A DNA stretch of 64,000 bases from assembly GCA_040743155.1 (NCBI GenBank), contig JBFLJU010000001.1:1919144-1983143 (forward strand), in the 5' to 3' direction. Positions within the stretch are counted from its first letter, which is position 1. Every line of letters begins with the position of its first letter. Shown here in pieces: positions 20,727-32,072 of the stretch. The position numbers were made by a program, and so were the translations under genes. The notes beneath the pieces are model-generated. The model was given only the letters and a program-made list of their open reading frames with translations. It had not been told where the DNA came from and did no database searches. The stretch is from Cycloclasticus sp. GTDB taxonomy: Bacteria > Pseudomonadota > Gammaproteobacteria > Methylococcales > Cycloclasticaceae.

Positions 20727-22826
20727 TCAAACTTGCGCATATTCTACTGAATTAGCTACCCAACGGTGAACTAAAGGTTCTACTAACTCTGGCTGTTTTC
20801 GCAAAATATTGTCCGCACATTCACTGACTTGTTCCAACACATCTGCATCACGCTCCATATCCGCTACTTTAAATTGCATAAATCCAGCCTGACGTTTGCC
20901 CAGCAACTCACCTGGACCGCGTAATTGCATATCTTTTTCGGCAATTTTAAAACCATCCGTCGTTTCACGCATAATCGATAATCGCTCGTTGGCATTTTTT
21001 GATAATGGCGGCTTATACATCAATACACAATGGCTAGCGCGCTGCCCTCTGCCCACTCTACCACGCAACTGATGCAGTTGTGCCAAGCCTAATCGTTCCG
21101 CATTTTCAATCACCATCAAACTGGCATTGGGTACATCAACACCCACTTCAATAACCGTTGTAGCAACCAATATATGTAACTCACGTTGTTTGAATTGTTG
21201 CATAACGGCCTGCTTTTCATCCGCTTTCATCCGCCCATGCACTAAGCCGATTTTTAAATTTGTTAATCTTTCTCGCAACAACTCGGCCGCCACCTCAGCC
21301 GCTTGACATTGTAAGGCTTCAGATTCTTCGATAAGGGTACAGACCCAGTACACTTGCCGGCCGTCTTCAACACCCTGTTTAATTCGTTCAATAACCCGTT
21401 CTCGTTTTGATACTGGCACCACCGATGTGGTCACCGCGGTGCGCCCAGGCGGTAATTCATCAATCACCGATAAATCTAGATCAGCATAGCCAAGCATCGC
21501 CAGTGTTCTCGGGATAGGCGTTGCCGTCATGACCAGCTGATGCGGGTGCAAACCATTCGCAGCACCTTTGTCACGCAATGCTAACCGTTGGTGCACGCCA
21601 AATCGGTGCTGCTCATCAATAATGACCAAGCCTAATTTAGCAAAAGTCACCTTTTCCTGAAACAACGCCTGCGTACCAATCACAATGCCAGAACGTCCTT
21701 CTCTGATATCTGCCGTAATCGCATCGTAGGTTTTCCCCTTATGCTGCCCCACTAACCAATCCACCTGAACACCCAGATCTGCTAGCCACGACTTGAAATT
21801 CTTAAAGTGCTGCTCGGCCAGTAATTCTGTCGGCGCCATAATAGCGACTTGAAAGCCGGCCTCTGTTGCCGCTAGTGCAGCGCAGGCCGCAACAATCGTC
21901 TTGCCCGAACCCACATCTCCTTGCAACAAACGCTGCATAGGACGTTGCTGAGCTAAGTCCAACTCTATCTCCTGAATAACGCGATGTTGCGCACCCGTTA
22001 AATCAAAGCCTAAAGAGTTTAAAAAATGTCGTCTATCTTTTCCATCCGAACTGAAACTTGGCGCGGTATTAAGTTGCACGCCTTCCTTTAAGCGACTTAA
22101 ACTCAAATGATGAGCCAATAACTCTTCGAATATTAAACGTTTAAACGCGGGGATTTTACTAGCGTCCAGTGGCGGCATCGTTTCGGGGTAATGTAATTGT
22201 TGCAAACTATCTGCTAATGTCGGCAAATAACGATCATTTATAACCTGTTGAGGTAAACAATCGCGCACCACCGCCCCTTGTTGAAGCAGCAAAAACGCTT
22301 GCTTTATTAACTTCCTAAAAGACGCCTGATGCAAACCCTCGGTTACTGGGTAGACGGCCAGCAGACCTTCTTCAATCTGACCACGTTGCCCCTCAGAAAT
22401 AAGCCTGTATTCTGGGTGAACAACATCAGCAGCGCCCGATTTATTGTGGGCTTTGATATCGCCAAAACAGCGTAACCACTGGCCGCGCTTCATCGCTTGT
22501 TTTTGAGTATTTGAGAAATGAAAGAATCGTAGAGTGACGAAGCCGGTACCATCGCTTACCCGAACTAACATTGAGCGGCGCCCTCTGAACACGACTTCTG
22601 CCAATTCAACTTGGCCTTCAAATAAGCACGACTCGCCAACTGGCAAAGACCCTATCGCCACCAGCTTGCTTCTGTCTTCGTACCTAAATGGCAGGTGAAA
22701 TAAGATATCCGCGACTGTTACGATGCCTAAGCGCTGTAACTTAGCCGACACTTTTTCGCCGACCCCCTTTAGCTGGGTAATGGGCAAATCATCCAAACAA
22801 CTTTTCACTGCTATCAATGCTATCAA
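20727..22826 (-). CDS. recG: ATP-dependent DNA helicase RecG
   Basis: About 699 residues. Branched-DNA helicase that reverses stalled forks. N-terminal wedge/OB-fold domain (THLKGVG-like helix, RSMLVRVSDGTG), Walker A GDVGSGKT, DEQH box IIDEQHRFGV, MTATPIPRT and C-terminal helicase motifs VGVDVPNASLMVIENAERLGL. The start is uncertain: the extreme 5' end is a 9-base tandem duplication (TTGATAGCA twice), giving TTG options at 22826 and 22817 and a GTG at 22808 that matches the family start better. Confidence 0.95.
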   Translation of the reverse strand: MIALIAVKSCLDDLPITQLKGVGEKVSAKLQRLGIVTVADILFHLPFRYEDRSKLVAIGSLPVGESCLFEGQVELAEVVFRGRRSMLVRVSDGTGFVTLRFFHFSNTQKQAMKRGQWLRCFGDIKAHNKSGAADVVHPEYRLISEGQRGQIEEGLLAVYPVTEGLHQASFRKLIKQAFLLLQQGAVVRDCLPQQVINDRYLPTLADSLQQLHYPETMPPLDASKIPAFKRLIFEELLAHHLSLSRLKEGVQLNTAPSFSSDGKDRRHFLNSLGFDLTGAQHRVIQEIELDLAQQRPMQRLLQGDVGSGKTIVAACAALAATEAGFQVAIMAPTELLAEQHFKNFKSWLADLGVQVDWLVGQHKGKTYDAITADIREGRSGIVIGTQALFQEKVTFAKLGLVIIDEQHRFGVHQRLALRDKGAANGLHPHQLVMTATPIPRTLAMLGYADLDLSVIDELPPGRTAVTTSVVPVSKRERVIERIKQGVEDGRQVYWVCTLIEESEALQCQAAEVAAELLRERLTNLKIGLVHGRMKADEKQAVMQQFKQRELHILVATTVIEVGVDVPNASLMVIENAERLGLAQLHQLRGRVGRGQRASHCVLMYKPPLSKNANERLSIMRETTDGFKIAEKDMQLRGPGELLGKRQAGFMQFKVADMERDADVLEQVSECADNILRKQPELVEPLVHRWVANSVEYAQV

Positions 22827-22853
22827 TGCTTTTCTAACGTCAAGCAGCTTCCA

Positions 22854-23243
22854 TTAGTCGTTACCTAGCACCATAACGGCATCCATTTCGACGCTACAAT
22901 CTTTTGGTAACGCCGCGACACCTATCGCCGCTCGAGCTGGGTACGGTTGTGAAAAATACTCGGCCATTTTTTCATTTACCACAGGAAAATCGGCCATATC
23001 TGTTAAATAAATATTAAGCTTAACAATGTCTGATAGTGAGCCACCCGCCGCTTGCGCTACAGAGGTTAAGTTCTTCAACACCTGCTCTATTTGATCTCCA
23101 ATATCACCCGTAACCAGCACCATTGTTTCTGCTACCAATGGAATCTGCCCTGACAAGTAAACAGTCTGATCAATTTTAATCGCTTGAGAATACGTGCCTA
23201 TCGCTTCCGGCGCTGAATCCGTATGAATAACTATTTTTTGCAA
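22854..23243 (-). CDS. RidA family reactive-intermediate deaminase
   Basis: 129 residues, the whole RidA/YjgF/UK114 fold. It hydrolyses reactive enamine/imine intermediates released by PLP enzymes. Landmarks: [30 protein letters not shown] and the conserved arginine in [16 protein letters not shown]. It sits 10 bases after spoT and upstream of recG, a common gammaproteobacterial neighbourhood. Confidence 0.93.
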
Positions 23244-23253
23244 AGCTCCCCCC

Positions 23254-25419
23254 TTAGTTCCTAATTCGAGTTATTTTTGTCAGTGCCGAAAGTCCCCGTA
23301 AACGGCGCATCACTCGAGCCAAATGTTTCCGATCACGCACTGTAATAGTAAAAACATCACTTGAAGCATCTTCTGAACGCGACGCTATTTTTATGTTTTC
23401 AATATTACAATCATATGATGAGAATATTGAAGTAATGGCCGCTAAAACACCGCGTTCATTCTTTAATTCTAAAGCAAGGTCTGAACTAAAATCACCTTCA
23501 ACTAGGTCTGACCATTGCACGCTCAACCAGTTTTTATGTTTACGCTTGAACTCCCTGGTGTTTTTGCAATGAATTCGGTGCACCACGACACCTCGTCCAG
23601 GGTTAAAGAAGCCAATAATTTTATCACCCGGAACGGGCCTACAGCAGGTACCTAGGTTAATAAGCATACCGTCTGCACCGTGAATATTGAGTGTTGCCGT
23701 GGACTGTTTGCCTTTAGCAATATCTATCGGCGATTCCTCCGCGCCTGCCGCCATCATTAGATGCTGAGCGACTAATAAGGGCATACGATTACCAAACCCC
23801 AAATCCATCAGCAAGGCGTCCAGCGAGCCGATTTGTTGTTCATCCAAAAATGCGTTCAGCTGCTCAGGGTCGAGCTCACCAAAATTCAAGCCCGCGCTTG
23901 TAAACTCAGCATTCAACAGTTGACCACCTAAGGCGATGGCATCACGCTCTTTAAATTCTTTTAGGTGATGACGAATAGCGTGCCTCGCCTTATTTGTAAC
24001 AACAAAGTTCAACCAGTTAGGGTTACAGACAGCAAAGTCACTGGTCATGATTTCAACCGTTTGCCCATTTCTAAGCACCGTATGCAAAGGTTCCATTCTT
24101 CTATTTATTTTCGCCCCAGCGCAGGTCATACCAACATCCGTATGTACCGCAAATGCAAAATCAACGGCAGTTGAACCTTTAGGCAATTTAACAATTTTCC
24201 CTTTTGGAGAAAAAACAAAAATCTCTGTCGGAAATAAAGCCACCTTTAAGGTATCAATAAACTCAAACGAGTCCTCTGAGTCTTTTTGGGTTTCTAACAA
24301 ATTCCTTAGCCACTCATGCGCTCTAACTTGAGTGTCATGCACAACATCTGTTGTTTTATATAGCCAGTGTGCGGCAATACCTGATTCAGCTACCCTATTC
24401 ATCTCAAGGGTTCTAATTTGAAGCTCGATTGGTACGCCGAAAGGTCCCACTAAAACGGTATGCAATGACTGATAGCCATTACTCTTTGGCAATGCAATGT
24501 AATCTTTAAACTTTCCCGGGATAGGTTTAAATAAATTATGTAGCACACCGAGTGCTTGATAGCACTCCCCCTTGGTTTCTACAATCACCCTAAACGCGTA
24601 CACATCAAACACTTCGTTAAACGGTATGCTTTGTCGCTTCATCTTCCGATAAATGCTATACAAATTCTTTTCACGACCGCTTATCACGCCAGGAAAGTTA
24701 GTCTCTAAAAAACCATCTATCAGTAACTTTTCAACTTTATCAACGACCTCTTTTCTGTTTCCTCGGGCTTTTTTAATGCTTTTGGAGATGATGGCTTTAC
24801 GCCGAGGGAACATCGCCTCAAAACTTAAGTCCTCTAACTCAAGTCGAAACTCATGCATACCTAATCTATGTGCGATCGGCGCATAAATATCGAGTGTTTC
24901 TTTGGCAATACGCCGCTTACTCGCCGGCTTCATAACGCTAATTGTTCGCATATTATGTAAACGATCAGCGAGCTTAATAATAATCACCCGTAAGTCTTTT
25001 GCCATGGCCAAAAACATCTTGCGCATATTTTCAGCTTGCGCCTCTTCGCGGGTTTTAAAATTAATTTTCGTTAGCTTACTAACCGCCTCAACAAGACCCG
25101 CAACGTCCTTGTTAAAAGAAGCCTCTAGGTCATCAAATGTTGTCTCCGTATCCTCTAACACGTCGTGCATAAGTGCCGCCATAATACAGTCAACATCCAA
25201 TTTCATATGACTCAAAATGAGTGCAACGGCAACCGGGTGACAAATATAATCTTCACCACTTAAGCGATACTGACCAAGGTGAGCGTCGCTCGCCACTTGG
25301 TACGCCTTTTCCACTTGTTCTAATTGGGCCACAGGCAGGTACTCAGTCAGCACCGACATTAATTCGGCTAACAACACTACTTGTGGTAGTTCACTTGTTT
25401 TTTTTGTCTCTACTTCCAT
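23254..25419 (-). CDS. spoT: Bifunctional (p)ppGpp synthetase/hydrolase SpoT
   Basis: 721 residues of the RelA/SpoT family. The HD hydrolase domain is intact (H85-D86 in [13 protein letters not shown]), indicating SpoT rather than RelA. The synthetase domain (about 230-345) includes DVYAFRVIV and [19 protein letters not shown], followed by TGS ([21 protein letters not shown]) and a C-terminal ACT domain ([20 protein letters not shown]). Sets the level of the stringent-response alarmone. It lies downstream of rpoZ but behind a probable terminator. Confidence 0.97.
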
Positions 25420-25440
25420 TAATGATTATTTTCCAACACA

Positions 25441-25475
25441 TATAAAAAATGCCCATGAATAACATCATGAGCATT
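25441..25475 (-). terminator. Terminator/attenuator between rpoZ and spoT
   Basis: On the minus strand an imperfect stem (AATGC-CATGA arms at 25448-25475 with one mismatch and a 6-nt loop) is followed by TTTTTTATA. It would end or attenuate transcription coming from rpoZ before spoT. A second hairpin (TCACCAA / TTGGTGA, 25484-25504) lies just ahead of it. Confidence 0.6.
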
Positions 25476-25527
25476 CGAGTCTATCACCAAAACTCTGTTG
25501 GTGAATAGAAGGTATTTCCAAACAGTT

Positions 25528-25809
25528 TTAGCTGACTGAGCCTTCTTCTGTAACTGCTTGTTCAGTAGAGTCTTCTTCATCGATAAACAGTTCTTCAATT
25601 GGTGGGTTATCCACTAAATCCAAAACGTCTTCTGTAATATTCCCTGCCGCAATCTCTCTTAAGGCAACAACGGTTGGCTTATCATTTTCAAGCTCAAGGC
25701 TTGGCTCTGCGCCATCCATAATTTGGCGCGCACGTCTTGAAGCCAATAAAACCAAATCAAAACGGTTGTCTACTTTTTCAAGACAATCAGAAACTGTTAC
25801 ACGTGCCAT
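25528..25809 (-). CDS. rpoZ: RNA polymerase omega subunit
   Basis: 93 residues. Starts [20 protein letters not shown], followed by [16 protein letters not shown] and the [14 protein letters not shown]-type segment (here [16 protein letters not shown]), the standard omega core with an acidic tail. It helps assemble the core enzyme and contributes to ppGpp response. It lies between gmk (63 bases upstream) and spoT. Confidence 0.97.
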
Positions 25810-25872
25810 TTGAGCCCCTTATAAAATATTAAATAATTTGAATAGCCGAGCATTGTACCCTATTTCACCCTA

Positions 25873-26499
25873 TTAATTAAGTAGCTGATTTATCAATGCT
25901 GAATGGGTGTGGCTTCCTCGTTGTATCAGTAGTCGCTGCGACTTCACAACCCCCACTATTTCGTTCAACGCAATCTCGAAATCATCGTTAACAACTAGAA
26001 AGTCATATTCATTGTAATGTGACATTTCATCAACCGCTGTGCACATCCGTTCTTCGATGATGTCATCACTGTCTTGCCCACGCCTTCTCAACCGCTCTTC
26101 TAGCACTTGCTTAGACGGCGGTAAAACAAAGATCGAGCAGCAATTTTCCATGACATCACGTATTTGTTGCGCTCCTTGCCAATCTATCTCAAGAATAATA
26201 TCGATACCTTGGGCCAGTTTCGCTTCAACCAGTGCTTTCGATGTACCGTATGAATTACCAAAAACACTCGCGTGCTCTAAAAAACCATGATGCTCAACAA
26301 GCCGCTGAAAGCCATCTGCGTCGATGAAATTGTAATCCACACCTTCTGTTTCGCCCGACCTTGCTGCCCTCGTCGTATGAGAAACCGAGACTTCTACACC
26401 AGAAACCGACTCTAACAACGCTTTCACTAGGCTTGTTTTACCCGCACCCGATGGTGCTGACACGATAAACAATTGCCCTACTGTCGTCATATTTTCCAT
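25873..26499 (-). CDS. gmk: Guanylate kinase
   Basis: 208 residues. It phosphorylates GMP to GDP. P-loop SAPSGAGKTSLVKAL, GMP-binding segment SHTTRAARSGETEGVDYNF and Walker B-like IILEIDWQGAQQIR. Two in-frame starts exist: ATG at 26499, and ATG three codons later preceded by GGAAAAT; the second may be the real one. Co-oriented with rpoZ and spoT, a usual grouping. The usual neighbour yicC is not upstream. Confidence 0.97.
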   Translation of the reverse strand: MENMTTVGQLFIVSAPSGAGKTSLVKALLESVSGVEVSVSHTTRAARSGETEGVDYNFIDADGFQRLVEHHGFLEHASVFGNSYGTSKALVEAKLAQGIDIILEIDWQGAQQIRDVMENCCSIFVLPPSKQVLEERLRRRGQDSDDIIEERMCTAVDEMSHYNEYDFLVVNDDFEIALNEIVGVVKSQRLLIQRGSHTHSALINQLLN

Positions 26500-27055
26500 T
26501 TATTCTATACGTTAAATTTGTTTTCTTTATGTGCCAATGAGCCGTTAAAACAGCGAATTTTTTCAAAATTCATATCAGAAACCACTAGCCTATCATTACT
26601 AAAACAACTGAGGTGAAGGCTTTATCACCTTGAGACGTTTTTTTACTATGTTAAAAACGTCTTTACCTAATAGAACAAGAACCGCACTTAAAGCAATGCC
26701 GCTCAGCACTAACTTTCATTAGTTGGCAAAGCCAAAATAGCGCCTAAACTTCTTACCGGCACTACCGATGTAATGTTTCGCCCATTGGCAGTTACGAATA
26801 TTATTATCGTATGCCCAGAATCGCTATTCACCATCATCTAAGCAACCTACTTGAACCCAGCTGTCTTATTAAACCGAACCACCCTGTAATGAGATGCGAC
26901 AATTTGCCACATTCCAAAGGCCGAAATAACTCGTTAAGCTATCATCAACTCTTACAGCAGTTTCAAGAAGTCTCCCTTTGTTGCTGCTTGTCGACCTCAA
27001 ATCTTTAAGAGTTCCTATATCGCCCTCTGTCCATCTGAGGGCGTTTTTTTTGATT
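26500..27055. other. 556-base non-coding block between gmk and argG
   Basis: No recognisable protein: the longest plus-strand frame (26811-27008) is low in coding character. The block holds several hairpins: AGGTGA / TCACCT near 26611-26630, a perfect 10-bp stem AGACGTTTTT / AAAAACGTCT at 26633-26662, TTGGC / GCCAA near 26731, and a strong plus-strand terminator at 27021-27051. This is the profile of a small-RNA locus, but no known RNA family (6S, tmRNA, RNase P, SRP) was recognised. Confidence 0.5.
27021..27051 (+). terminator. Strong plus-strand terminator with no assigned gene
   Basis: A 7-bp GC-rich stem CGCCCTC / GAGGGCG with a 9-nt loop is followed by eight T residues on the plus strand. 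On the minus strand, downstream of argG, there is no T tract, so it is oriented for a plus-strand RNA ending here, convergent with argG. Confidence 0.75.
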
Positions 27056-28273
27056 CTAAGATCGCTTTCTTGCCGCAATGCGCATACGCAGGGCATTTAA
27101 TTTAATAAAGCCTTCTGCGTCTTTTTGATCATATGCACCACCATCATCTTCGAAGGTTGCAATATTTTCATCAAACAAGCTATCTGTTGACGACTCACGC
27201 CCCACAACGATCACATTCCCTTTATAAAGCTTCAAACGAATACGCCCATTCACCGTCACTTGCGATGCATCGATCATGGTTTGCAACATTTCGCGCTCTG
27301 GGCTCCACCAGTAGCCATTATAGATAAGGCTAGCGTAACGCGGCATTAACTCATCTTTAAGGTGAGTCACCTCACGATCCAAGGTAATCGACTCGATAGC
27401 TCTGTGCGCTTTGAGCATAATGGTGCCACCCGGTGTTTCGTAGCAACCACGGGCTTTCATACCGACATAGCGATTTTCTACTATATCTGCACGACCAATA
27501 CCATTAGCACCACCGACTCTGTTCAACTCTGCCAGCACTGTTGCGGGAGACATCGCCTGCCCATCAATCGCAACAATATCACCCGCTTTGTACTCAAGTT
27601 CAATGTACGTTGCGTCGCTCGGCGCCGCTTCTGGCGATACCGACCAACGCCACATGTCTTCTTCAGGCTCAACCCATGGGTCTTCTAAAATATCGCCTTC
27701 ATAGGAAATATGTAGCAAATTGGCATCCATTGAATACGGTGATTTTTTACCGCGTTTCATTTCAACCGCAATACCTGCTTTTTCAGCATAGTCCAATAGC
27801 GACTCACGTGAGGTTAAATCCCATTCACGCCATGGCGCGATAATTTTTACGTCTGGTTTCAGCGCATACGCACCGAGTTCAAAACGCACTTGGTCATTGC
27901 CTTTTCCAGTTGCGCCATGCGAAATAGCATCAGCACCCGTTTCGTTGGCAATTTCAATTAAACGTTTGGAAATAAGCGGCCGCGCAATAGACGTACCAAG
28001 AAGGTACTCACCTTCATAAATGGTATTGGCTCTAAACATTGGAAACACAAAGTCACGAACGAACTCTTCTTTCAGATCATCGATATAAATTTCTTTGATA
28101 CCATACGACACCGCTTTTGCGCGAGCTGGCTCAACTTCTTCGCCTTGACCCAAATCGGCCGTAAATGTAACCACTTCACAACCGTATACATCTTCCAACC
28201 ACTTAAGAATAACGGACGTATCTAATCCACCTGAATAGGCTAAAACAACTTTATTCACTTCTTGCTTTGACAT
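27056..28273 (-). CDS. argG: Argininosuccinate synthase
   Basis: 405 residues. ATP-dependent condensation of citrulline and aspartate in arginine synthesis. The ATP-pyrophosphatase motif is [15 protein letters not shown] at about residues 11-25; other landmarks are [14 protein letters not shown] and [13 protein letters not shown]. Length is normal. A second arginine gene, argB, is at 37.5 kb. It is preceded by a minus-strand -10-like TATAAT. Confidence 0.98.
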
Positions 28274-28307
28274 GGGCTAACTCGCGACTTAAAAAAATAA
28301 TGCGCGA

Positions 28308-28313
28308 ATTATA
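28308..28313 (-). promoter_or_regulatory. Candidate -10 element of argG
   Basis: A consensus TATAAT on the minus strand 35 bases upstream of the argG ATG. No good -35 is visible at 16-18 bases, so the promoter would need an activator or is weak. Confidence 0.35.
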
Positions 28314-28336
28314 CCTGATTGGATGACCGCTTGGCG

Positions 28337-29491
28337 CTACCCTGAAATTGAAATATCAACGCGCCTATTCAATTGGCGTCCTGTTGGATAACGATTGCTG
28401 CTGGTTGGCCTACTTTCGCCATACGCTTTCGTAATAATTTGCTCGGACTTAACCCCTTTTGCTAGCAAATATTGCTTAATCACATTAATACGTTTTTTAG
28501 ACACCGCCATATTAGCCTGACGCGGCCCTTCACTATCACTATACCCCTTAAGCACGAGGGTACCTTCTGGTTTTTGTAGGCGCAAATAGTCCAACAAATA
28601 GTCCAATTTTGTATTGTCACGCTTATTTAACTGAGTTGAGCCCGACCTAAAATAAATATGGCTGAAAGGTTCTGGCCCAGCCACCTTAATGCGCACACTG
28701 CCCTCAGGCGTATCTAATGCTTCAGGGTCATCAAGCGCAATAACTTGCTCCGCGGGCATACCTTCTTTAATTAAGAAGTCACGTAACGTTTGCACACGCT
28801 TATCATAAACTCGCCGGCCATCTTTGACTGAAAAACCGTCTGTACCACGAATAAGGTCAATCCGCTCAGTAGGGCCCGCCTCTCTCACATACGTCACCGC
28901 CTTACTCAAAAGTTTGCGGTTTTTATGTGTGATTGTTGTACTTAAATTATTGAATAACGATAGTTTTTGATGCACATCTTTTCGACTAAATGGCAGTAAG
29001 TTTTGACGACATGCCTCAAACAGAGCCATCACATCCAAAAAATTAACTGACGATACAACGACACTTACCGCAGCGCCACCTTGCTTAGTTTCATAGTTAA
29101 ATTGCGGAAAACGCCCGTTAGAAAGTTCCTGTAACATCCTTTCAGACACATCACTATTGACCTCTACTTGATGCGCCGAAGCTTCAACTGTCGCTAACTT
29201 TAACGATGGTGCATCATGCATCCAAACCGGCGCCACAGAACTCAACATGGCCGTTTGAATTGGCGGCACATACGACTTGGCTTGTAAGGTAAAGTTAACG
29301 CGTTCGCCCGATTTTTGTTCAAAAACACCCACACCATACTGCGGAATGGTATGCGTTATTGAGCATGCCACCTTGTTACCTGAAAATTGCCATTGTGAAT
29401 GAGTAATCGGCGCTTGATACTGTTGCGCCTGCGTACTAGCGCTAAATAATATGACCGCTAATATTGATAACGTGTGATTAATTACTTTCAT
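28337..29491 (-). CDS. MotY-like protein with tandem OmpA-type domains
   Basis: 384 residues from the ATG at 29491, which opens directly into a signal peptide (cleavage near ASTQA); an upstream in-frame start at 29518 is less likely. The N-terminal domain resembles MotY (QWQFSGNKVACSITHTIPQYG and FEACRQNLLPF, supplying a Cys pair). Then come a degenerate OmpA-like unit (RIDLIRGTDGF to MPAEQVIALDD) and a complete peptidoglycan-binding OmpA domain (HIYFRSGSTQLN, LKGYSDSEG, RRVDISI). MotY belongs to the flagellar motor T-ring, but no flagellar genes lie in the window, so a general envelope role is possible. Confidence 0.8.
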   Translation of the reverse strand: MKVINHTLSILAVILFSASTQAQQYQAPITHSQWQFSGNKVACSITHTIPQYGVGVFEQKSGERVNFTLQAKSYVPPIQTAMLSSVAPVWMHDAPSLKLATVEASAHQVEVNSDVSERMLQELSNGRFPQFNYETKQGGAAVSVVVSSVNFLDVMALFEACRQNLLPFSRKDVHQKLSLFNNLSTTITHKNRKLLSKAVTYVREAGPTERIDLIRGTDGFSVKDGRRVYDKRVQTLRDFLIKEGMPAEQVIALDDPEALDTPEGSVRIKVAGPEPFSHIYFRSGSTQLNKRDNTKLDYLLDYLRLQKPEGTLVLKGYSDSEGPRQANMAVSKKRINVIKQYLLAKGVKSEQIITKAYGESRPTSSNRYPTGRQLNRRVDISISG

Positions 29492-29536
29492 GCCGCTTGT
29501 ATCGGCCGATAAAAGCAAAACTTTATAGCTTTTCCG

Positions 29537-30316
29537 TTAGCCTAGAAAATGATTGAGCATCTGCATAAATTCTGTTGGTGACTCGATGTGTGGCCAATGC
29601 CCTGCCCTTTCTATTGTTTGAAATTCAGCATTAGGGAACATATCTTTCGCCACGCCTTGGTAACGCAAGGCTAAGTAGCTGGACTTGCCACCATTAATAA
29701 ACAAGGCTGGATCGGTATACGCCGCTACCGCCTCATTCGCGGGGAAGCCCATAATCGCCAGCATGTTTTCTTCAATGCTCGCTAAGTTTACACGCCACTG
29801 GTAGCCGCCAGTCTCACCTTTCACTAAATTTTGTAATAAAAACTGCCGCAAACTTGGCACGGCTATTTTTTCCGCTAAGTATCGCTCCGCCTCTTTCCTT
29901 GAATTCACATGATCTAGCGGCACGTGATAAAAGCCCGCCAAAACGTCGTCAAAATTGTGCGTATACGCCACTGGCGCTATATCCACCAACACTAGTTTGC
30001 TTATTTTCTCTGGCGATGATAAGGCAAACTGCATAGCCACTTTTCCGCCCATACTGTGCCCAAGCACCGTCGCGCATTTTATTTGATGCAGCTCCATAAA
30101 CGCCAACACATCGGCTGACATAGATGAATAGTCCATTATGTCTGAATGTGGCGATCCGCCATGGTTACGTAAATCTAGCGCATATACGGTATAACGATCC
30201 GATAGCTGCTTGGCAATACCCTGCCAGTTCCGAGCACTACCAAATAGACCATGCAAAATAATTAGCGGCTCGCCTAATTCACCGTGTTGCGCGTAATTTA
30301 AAGTCACTGTATTCAC
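29537..30316 (-). CDS. Alpha/beta hydrolase (YbfF-like esterase)
   Basis: About 259 residues from a GTG at 30316. The open frame extends 23 codons further into lpdA, but the family sequence begins at NTVTLNYAQHG. Motifs: LHGLFGSARNWQGIAKQL (oxyanion hole region), LDLRNHGGSPH, nucleophile elbow GHSMGGKVAMQ and catalytic His in ERAGHWPHIESP. E. coli YbfF hydrolyses palmitoyl-CoA and short esters; the physiological substrate is unknown. It follows lpdA by 13 bases, so it is probably the tail of the PDH operon. Confidence 0.88.
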   Translation of the reverse strand: MNTVTLNYAQHGELGEPLIILHGLFGSARNWQGIAKQLSDRYTVYALDLRNHGGSPHSDIMDYSSMSADVLAFMELHQIKCATVLGHSMGGKVAMQFALSSPEKISKLVLVDIAPVAYTHNFDDVLAGFYHVPLDHVNSRKEAERYLAEKIAVPSLRQFLLQNLVKGETGGYQWRVNLASIEENMLAIMGFPANEAVAAYTDPALFINGGKSSYLALRYQGVAKDMFPNAEFQTIERAGHWPHIESPTEFMQMLNHFLG

Positions 30317-30329
30317 TGAATGCTGGCGC

Positions 30330-32072
30330 TTATTTCTTCTTAATGTATAAATCCGTAATCGAGCCTGCTTGCATTTCTGCCGCAAAGCACAAGGTTTCGG
30401 ACAGCGTAGGGTGCGGATGAATGGTTAAGCTCATATCTTCAACATCAGCGCCCATTTCCAATGCCAGAACCGCTTCAGCGATGAGTTCACCAGCATTTGT
30501 CCCCACGATACCCGCGCCTAATATACGCTTTGTCTGTGGATCCCAAAGAATTTTAGTCATGCCTTCATCGCGACCAATACTCAAGGCACGGCCACTTGCT
30601 GCCCACGCGAACACTGATTTTTCGTATTTAATGCCATCCGCTTTTGCCGTAGTTTCAGTTAAACCCATCCATGATATTTCAGGGTCGGTATACGCTACTG
30701 ATGGGATCGTCATCGGGTCAAACGCCGCCTTTTCACCGGCTATCACTTCTGCCGCTACTTTGGCTTCGTGTACCGCTTTATGCGCTAACATTGGGTTGCC
30801 GACGACATCGCCGATAGCAAAAATATGCGGCACATTGCTTCGCATTTGTTTATCCACCGAAATAAAGCCGCGTTCATCCACTTTCACGCCTGCTTTATCC
30901 GCACTGATCAACCCACCATTGGCTCGTCGACCCACCGATAATAAGACTCGATCGTACACTGCCGACTCGGGCACACCCTCACCTTCAAATGTCACTTTTA
31001 AACCGGCATCGGTGGATTCAATGGCTGTCACTTTTGCTTTTAAGTAAATATTTTCTAGCTGCTTTGAAAGGCGTTTGTGCAAGGGTTTAACTAAATCTTT
31101 ATCACAGCCCGCCACCAACTGATCCATTAACTCTATAACGCTTATTTTGGAGCCTAGGGCGTGATAAACCGTCGCCATTTCAAGCCCAATAATACCGCCA
31201 CCTATGACTAACATTGTTTCAGGCACATCCGCTAGCGCTAACGCACCCGTTGAGTCCATTAGTCGCTCATCGTCATATGGAAAGCCTGGAATTTTTACTG
31301 GCTGAGAACCTGCCGCAATAATCGCATTATCAAATGATATTGTTTGACTAGCACCATCACGCTCAACAACCACCGAATGACTTGAGGCAAAATTTGCATA
31401 CCCCGTCACTACCGTCACGTTTCGCTGTTTTGCCAGACCCGCCAAACCACCTGTTAAGCGCTGAATGATCTTTTCTTTATTACCACGAATGCCATCAATG
31501 TCTAACGTTGGCGGTTCAAATGTAACACCATGAGCCGACATCTCCGCCGCTTCATGAATCACTTGAGCTTGGTGCAACAAGGCTTTTGATGGAATACAGC
31601 CCACGTTCAAACAAACGCCGCCTAATGAAGAATAACGCTCAATCAACACTACTTTCTTGCCTAAATCTGCCGCGCGAAATGCTGCGGTATAACCGCCGGG
31701 ACCCGCCCCCATCACTAACACTTCAGCGTGTAGGTCGGCGTTAGCGTTTGCAGGAATGACCGGCGTAGAAACAGGCTTGGCCACTGGGATATCGTCAGAA
31801 GCGGCTTTGTCTTGCGTAGAAGCGGACGCCATAACTTCAAGCTTAATGAGCATATCGCCTTCGAGCACTTTATCACCCAAAGCAACCATAATTTCTTTAA
31901 CGACTCCGGCGCCGGTGCTGGGAATATCCATCGACGCCTTATCGCTCTCGAGCGTCACGATACTATCTTCGATAGCAACGATATCACCCACTGAAACAGC
32001 AATATCTATCACTTCGACACCCTCGTCAAACTCACCAATATCGGGAACATTTATATCTATAAAATCAGTCAT
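30330..32072 (-). CDS. lpdA: Dihydrolipoyl dehydrogenase (PDH E3) with N-terminal lipoyl domain
   Basis: 580 residues. An N-terminal lipoyl domain (lipoylation site LESDKASMDIPS at about residues 37-54) and an Ala/Pro linker precede a complete FAD-dependent disulfide oxidoreductase: FAD motif GAGPGGYTAAFRAADLG, redox-active pair GGVCLNVGCIPSK, NAD motif GGGIIGLEMATVYHALG and C-terminal His/Glu in IHPHPTLSE. It reoxidises the lipoamide of E2. Third gene of aceE-aceF-lpdA, 8 bases after aceF. Confidence 0.97.
   Translation of the reverse strand: MTDFIDINVPDIGEFDEGVEVIDIAVSVGDIVAIEDSIVTLESDKASMDIPSTGAGVVKEIMVALGDKVLEGDMLIKLEVMASASTQDKAASDDIPVAKPVSTPVIPANANADLHAEVLVMGAGPGGYTAAFRAADLGKKVVLIERYSSLGGVCLNVGCIPSKALLHQAQVIHEAAEMSAHGVTFEPPTLDIDGIRGNKEKIIQRLTGGLAGLAKQRNVTVVTGYANFASSHSVVVERDGASQTISFDNAIIAAGSQPVKIPGFPYDDERLMDSTGALALADVPETMLVIGGGIIGLEMATVYHALGSKISVIELMDQLVAGCDKDLVKPLHKRLSKQLENIYLKAKVTAIESTDAGLKVTFEGEGVPESAVYDRVLLSVGRRANGGLISADKAGVKVDERGFISVDKQMRSNVPHIFAIGDVVGNPMLAHKAVHEAKVAAEVIAGEKAAFDPMTIPSVAYTDPEISWMGLTETTAKADGIKYEKSVFAWAASGRALSIGRDEGMTKILWDPQTKRILGAGIVGTNAGELIAEAVLALEMGADVEDMSLTIHPHPTLSETLCFAAEMQAGSITDLYIKKK

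Follow-up and report, generated by a model that had tools for sequence, protein, structure and literature searches.

The 64,000-nt stretch of Cycloclasticus DNA analyzed here (the window) contains an intrinsic terminator, CGCCCTC-loop-GAGGGCG followed by eight T on the plus strand, in a region (22000-31000) where plus-strand open reading frames are either short or antisense to long minus-strand genes. Which transcript ends there, and what drives its expression? The initial annotation correctly recognized the terminator and the lack of a gene on its strand, and proposed that the preceding hairpin-rich block of some 500 bases encodes a small RNA. The genome consists of one contig of 2.56 Mb, with 14 matches above cut-off to ring-hydroxylating dioxygenase alpha subunits, and is assigned to the Methylococcales in the GTDB sense (hereafter the order), NCBI placing Cycloclasticus in the Thiotrichales. 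The data presented below make it likely that the RegB/RegA redox system activates a free-standing gene at 26895-27051, encoding a small RNA of about 105 nt, as part of a regulon that includes TonB-type receptors. The orphan terminator would then belong to a delimited gene, for which a candidate regulator can be named.

The extent of the element is indicated by the comparison with relatives that the initial annotation had proposed for the gmk-argG spacer. All matches with E < 0.001 in the DNA of 60 relatives fall in window positions ~26894-27060, and the ~390 bases before the RNA gene (26500-26890) gave none at this threshold; when compared with the collected loci, these bases gave a single 27-nt match (E 0.11). 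Folding energies were z -0.4 for 26500-26890 (32/100 shuffles as good), z -1.0 for 26500-27055 (15/100 shuffles at least as good) and z -3.4 for 26947-27051, where one of 200 shuffles was as good. A structured RNA of 500 bases is ruled out by the absence of conservation in 26500-26890 and by its fold. The stem reported in this block does exist, as an isolated hairpin near 26632-26662 (10-11 bp; 11 bp in our fold) within the unconserved spacer before gmk, but an excess of hairpins over chance in the block is not confirmed. The proposed plus-strand RNA, which would end at the terminator and run towards the 3' end of argG, is well supported by conservation, promoter geometry and fold, at a length of about 105 nt rather than 550. 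We thus predict, from the sequence, a conserved small-RNA gene with its own promoter and terminator, the parts of which are given in table 1.

Table 1. Predicted features of the small-RNA gene (window coordinates)
Feature	Position	Strand	Basis
17-bp palindrome TGCGACAATTTGCCACA, predicted activator (RegA-type) site	26895-26911	+	recurrence in the order vs reversed control
TTCCAA, putative place of weak -35 element	26912-26917	+	deduced from spacing to the -10 box
Predicted -10 box TAAGCT	26935-26940	+	TAnnnT at fixed offset from site start
Predicted small RNA, about 105 nt	26947-27051	+	orthologues in genus; fold z -3.4; 5' end deduced
AACTCTTA, predicted 5' arm of closing stem	26947-26954	+	A(A/G)CTCTTA starts all 13 aligned orthologues; fold
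TCTCCC, C-rich, in variable middle	26971-26976	+	sequence; not common to all orthologues
GACCTCA, conserved, predicted unpaired in window RNA, candidate seed	26993-26999	+	10/13 orthologues; fold
TAAGAGTT, predicted 3' arm of closing stem	27006-27013	+	AAGAGT in 13/13 orthologues, before terminator; fold
Intrinsic terminator, 7-bp stem and eight T	27021-27051	+	sequence, terminator scan; helix of 8 pairs, 2 with compensatory change

By searching for ArgG in 18 genomes of the genus Cycloclasticus, we obtained matches in 17 (all except G013), 16 of which have a readable 3' flank (G003 being incomplete). An ortholog of the RNA gene lies beside argG in 13 of these 16 genomes, and is absent from this place in the other three (G005, G015, and G016). 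The 13 predicted RNAs are 93-164 nt long, with a variable middle, and single-sequence folds give a closing stem of 7-8 bp before the terminator. From the alignment of the 13 orthologs, RNAalifold recovered the terminator helix alone (compensatory change in 2/8 pairs); MAFFT misplaces the 3' stem arm in this alignment, and the closing stem is predicted from single-sequence folds, not from covariation. In four genus genomes (loci L013, L014, L015, and L017), a gene for a CobW/COG0523-like GTPase starts divergently next to the box of the RNA gene; for the L017 protein, CobW was the best model, below cut-off.

The most telling part of the gene, overlooked in the initial annotation, is the palindromic site at its upstream end, TGCGACAATTTGCCACA being one form of the palindrome TGYGRCA-ATT-TGYCRCA. 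Followed by TTCC and with at most one mismatch, this palindrome was present in 100 of the 301 order genomes searched and absent from the other 201, and the reversed control pattern gave one hit. We then considered 175 sites from 130 loci, some of them in the window's own genome, after removal of repeats identical over 120 bases; this set includes weaker matches and, given the palindromic motif, also sites that were read on each of the two strands. A terminator is found within 215 nt after the site in 106 cases (terminator-bearing sites). In 103 of these 106 sites and in 52 of the 69 others, the site start is followed by TAnnnT at a distance of 39 or 40 bases, compared with 0-14 and 0-6 sites, respectively, for twelve other offset pairs. 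Such a fixed spacing between box and -10 element corresponds to that of promoters in which an activator site adjoins a weak -35. Applied to the window, this offset gives the -10 box listed in table 1 and a transcription start that would lie near 26947. RNA genes of similar design recur across families of the order, among relatives that oxidize methane or hydrocarbons, and 16 loci have several terminator-bearing copies (two to four) on the same strand.

Several lines of evidence point to a RegA-type response regulator as the likely activator acting at the palindrome. An inverted repeat of the GCG type, such as this site, was proposed for PrrA/RegA in a study whose consulted parts report no strong consensus from PrrA ChIP-seq (PMC4263372); the palindrome would provide a regulator of this type with a sharp 17-bp operator at a fixed distance from the promoter. 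RegSR, RegBA, ActSR, and PrrBA are described as similar systems in the portion consulted of another report (PMC8139620). The window's genome encodes a RegB/RegA-like pair (G000:C1:784265-786094). With slightly trimmed queries, the best NCBIfam models were ActS/PrrB/RegB (NF033792; 235.2 of 350 bits, below cut-off) for the 426-aa RegB-like protein and ActR/PrrA/RegA (NF033791; 207.8 of 250 bits, below cut-off) for the 182-aa RegA-like protein. The former contains an H-box and a GGxxNPF segment (HELGTPLGT and GGATNPF), and the latter a receiver and a Fis-type helix-turn-helix, both above cut-off (Response_reg and HTH_8).

The box is moreover associated with regB itself. It is present upstream of the own regB with one mismatch, and 10 of 17 regB upstream regions in the genus score at least 15/17, compared with 3 of 1020 shuffles. 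Among the 130 site-bearing loci, 19 encode a RegB-like kinase with H(E/D)xGTPLG, and all 19 have a terminator-bearing site. Starting conversely from RegB, which was present in 30/30 chosen genomes of the order, we scored 25 loci (three were unplaced and two incomplete), a set that overlaps in part with the 130 loci: 11 of them carry a 16-17/17 site in the regB upstream region, and a good site is missing in the other 14. Four genomes of one genus have no site upstream of regB. Resemblance to redox regulons of the RegB/RegA type (PrrBA, RoxSR, ActSR, and that of Methylomonas sp. DH-1) lies in the RegB/RegA-like pair, the box at regB and the TonB-type uptake genes behind the box.

These other genes behind the box bear on the identity of the regulator. 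The genome of the window has perfect boxes at four places, the first being that of the window RNA. The box at 79318 belongs to a TonB receptor gene, with Pfam barrel and plug domains above cut-off and TonB-copper as best NCBIfam model (116.6 of 472 bits for a fragment cut by the locus end), and that at 2161563 to a TonB-receptor-like gene for which all NCBIfam models were below cut-off. The fourth (338379-338395; L266:1501-1517) lies between an outer-membrane-like gene, for which a -10 element is found at offset 40 by our count, and a gene of the AmoC/PmoC family; a longer inverted repeat (CCCATACC...GGTATGGG) surrounds it. When up to two mismatches were allowed, nine distinct places were found (four perfect, one with one mismatch and four with two) versus 6 for the reversed control, so that the two-mismatch boxes of this genome are not above chance. 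Matches to AmoC/PmoC-like copper membrane monooxygenase subunits occur at 338832-339551 (L294), 493682-494491 (L274), and 1251087-1251773 (L288), two of which were checked with Pfam. A box with two mismatches at the own copper-monooxygenase-like operon (L271) was rejected as unsupported in relatives: in 23 loci, among which the gene could be placed in 14, scores above 13/17 were obtained only for the own loci L274 (15/17) and L294 (17/17), and in L294 the box is across the spacer from the gene. In many loci from other orders, the site is followed by protein genes, including a TonB-dependent copper receptor (L071; 736 bits) and a copper uptake system-associated protein (L057), both above cut-off, as well as other TonB receptors and, by resemblance only, FecI-like sigma factors. 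In four loci (L131, L137, L139, and L141), a gene encoding a secreted-looking, Ala/Lys/Glu-rich protein of 92-110 aa lies about 200 bases past the box; the L137 protein, the one of the four that was tested, had no Pfam match.

Genes with such functions, largely in metal uptake, would also suit a metal-responsive regulator. The small-RNA gene may thus be the same but its activator another protein, for example a copper- or iron-responsive one, whose site also controls regBA, and the copper receptor and copper-uptake genes behind the site outside the order would fit this explanation. However, the regB neighborhood recurs in several families, with boxes at regB itself, and the GCG inverted repeat is of the kind proposed for RegA; at L071, a RegA-like gene lies about 1 kb from the box that precedes the copper receptor gene. 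We therefore regard another regulator as rather unlikely, and RegA as the better candidate.

The position of the RNA gene raises the question of its relation to argG. Convergent placement would allow the RNA to act in cis by interfering with argG 3'-end transcripts, all the more so as the argG strand lacks a T-run terminator at the 27021-27051 hairpin, and read-through from argG would for this reason be antisense to the RNA. However, in other families similar promoter-RNA-terminator units adjoin other genes, such as regB and ntrC-like genes, so that the argG neighborhood is not general, and a cis-acting role appears quite improbable. It is still less probable that the hairpin, found 5 bases beyond the stop codon of argG, simply terminates argG transcripts or works in both directions, with no separate RNA. 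Indeed, the terminator scan gave a call on the plus strand only, there is no T-run beyond the hairpin on the minus strand, and in G005, which lacks the RNA gene at this place, the hairpin on the argG side is followed by a T-run on the opposite strand. This comparison and the plus-strand T-run rule out a terminator working on the argG side only, the result that the initial annotation had named as contrary to its proposal, and the box, the -10 element and the RNA body are conserved besides; by its sequence, the terminator should serve plus-strand transcripts only. Finally, the probability that the locus encodes a small protein is negligible, because the reading frames are mechanical ones, such as that of 65 aa at 26811-27008, which begins upstream of the predicted promoter, because 8 of the 13 orthologous RNAs contain no ORF of at least 8 codons and those of the others differ, leaving no conserved ORF, and because the RNA lengths do not vary in steps of three.

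Does the RNA belong to a known family? The initial annotation could identify none, and the covariance-model search that it recommended agrees with this at Rfam gathering scores, with 0 matches in the 64-kb window; 26 further loci gave nothing but one tRNA. The best Rfam resemblance among the RNAs searched from other families was that of L138 to the suhB/mmgR RNA (RF00519), at 37.1 bits (E 4.7e-4), below the gathering score of 41; the window RNA had no match to this model at gathering score, and none was listed at the place of the RNA in L001 with E up to 5. The GacA-controlled RNAs RsmY and RsmZ are small RNAs driven by a two-component system. They resemble the window RNA in that an activator box precedes a short RNA with a terminator at its end and that some genomes have multiple copies, but both box and regulator differ (sequences were compared via the Rfam scans only). 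We also aligned 37 RNAs from another family (39 were selected and two left out), which recovered a closing stem and a terminator; of 12 pairs, 3 show changes on both sides, and these 3 belong to the terminator helix. The covariance model derived from this alignment (R1) was run against the window and 13 genus loci, where its sole match at the place of the RNA (L192, E 3.3) was not significant. Because R1 finds no significant match in the window's genus, common descent of the RNA bodies is not claimed; their homology between the genus and other families is unproven, and what these RNAs share is promoter and anatomy. A description of the window RNA was not found in titles and abstract openings of the open-licence papers listed.

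As to function, we propose that a RegA-type response regulator, encoded elsewhere with its RegB-type kinase, would bind the palindrome and activate the promoter through its weak -35 and -10 elements; we infer that the resulting transcript, in which a long-range stem would close the RNA, a conserved stretch would stay unpaired and an intrinsic terminator would mark the 3' end, probably base-pairs with mRNAs of the same redox/metal program. The best candidate seed in the window RNA is GACCUCA. The sequence TGAGGTCG occurs shortly before an ATG in 17 of 18 genomes, with 150 hits versus 97 for the reversed control; inspection by eye revealed no recurrent gene among these hits, whose genes are unnamed. 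Outside the genus, 52 of 95 RNAs contain 6-mers of the anti-Shine-Dalgarno type, versus a shuffled mean of 15.5 (maximum 26), an excess that counts sequences rather than independent events because the 95 RNAs are partly related copies. Within the genus such 6-mers are not enriched (1 of 11 RNAs vs 2.2 in shuffles). Pairing with ribosome-binding sites is plausible for the wider group of RNAs.

In Methylomonas sp. DH-1, RegA binds the promoter of feo, its proven direct target, and expression of the tbdr and tonB operons drops in a regA deletion without RegA binding, the intermediaries being left open (PMC13274454, 2026, in its consulted parts). The main text of that study, in which "sRNA", "small RNA", "motif", and "consensus" were not found, thus differs from the present prediction of a small RNA and a box. 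A box-driven small RNA is a candidate for such an intermediary. It is possible, and we suggest it only tentatively, that RegB/RegA in Methylococcales and their relatives has a dedicated post-transcriptional arm, in which box-driven small RNAs, some in tandem and often beside regBA, would target, by base-pairing, the ribosome-binding sites of mRNAs for metal uptake and respiration and so control TonB-dependent uptake without RegA binding at the promoters concerned.

The box is also found in a wider range of bacteria. One scan with TGCGACAATTTGYCRCATTCCA of genomes from named species retrieved 46 stretches, with titles including Methylococcaceae, Methylothermaceae, Crenotrichaceae, Nitrosomonas, Nitrotoga, Gallionellaceae, Methylotenera, Nitrococcus, and others. 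One locus is entitled Klebsiella pneumoniae (L102; CAMAPQ010000109.1), yet it derives from a metagenome-assembled genome and this label may be wrong. A literature search for the motif string gave a single paper, which has it in E. coli primers; the consulted text indicates an unrelated context (PMC10470549). In another locus (L026:1591-1623), box and terminator-like hairpin coincide because a palindrome resembling the box, TGCGACAATATGTCGCA, lies within a GGGGGC/GCCCCC hairpin that is followed by T.
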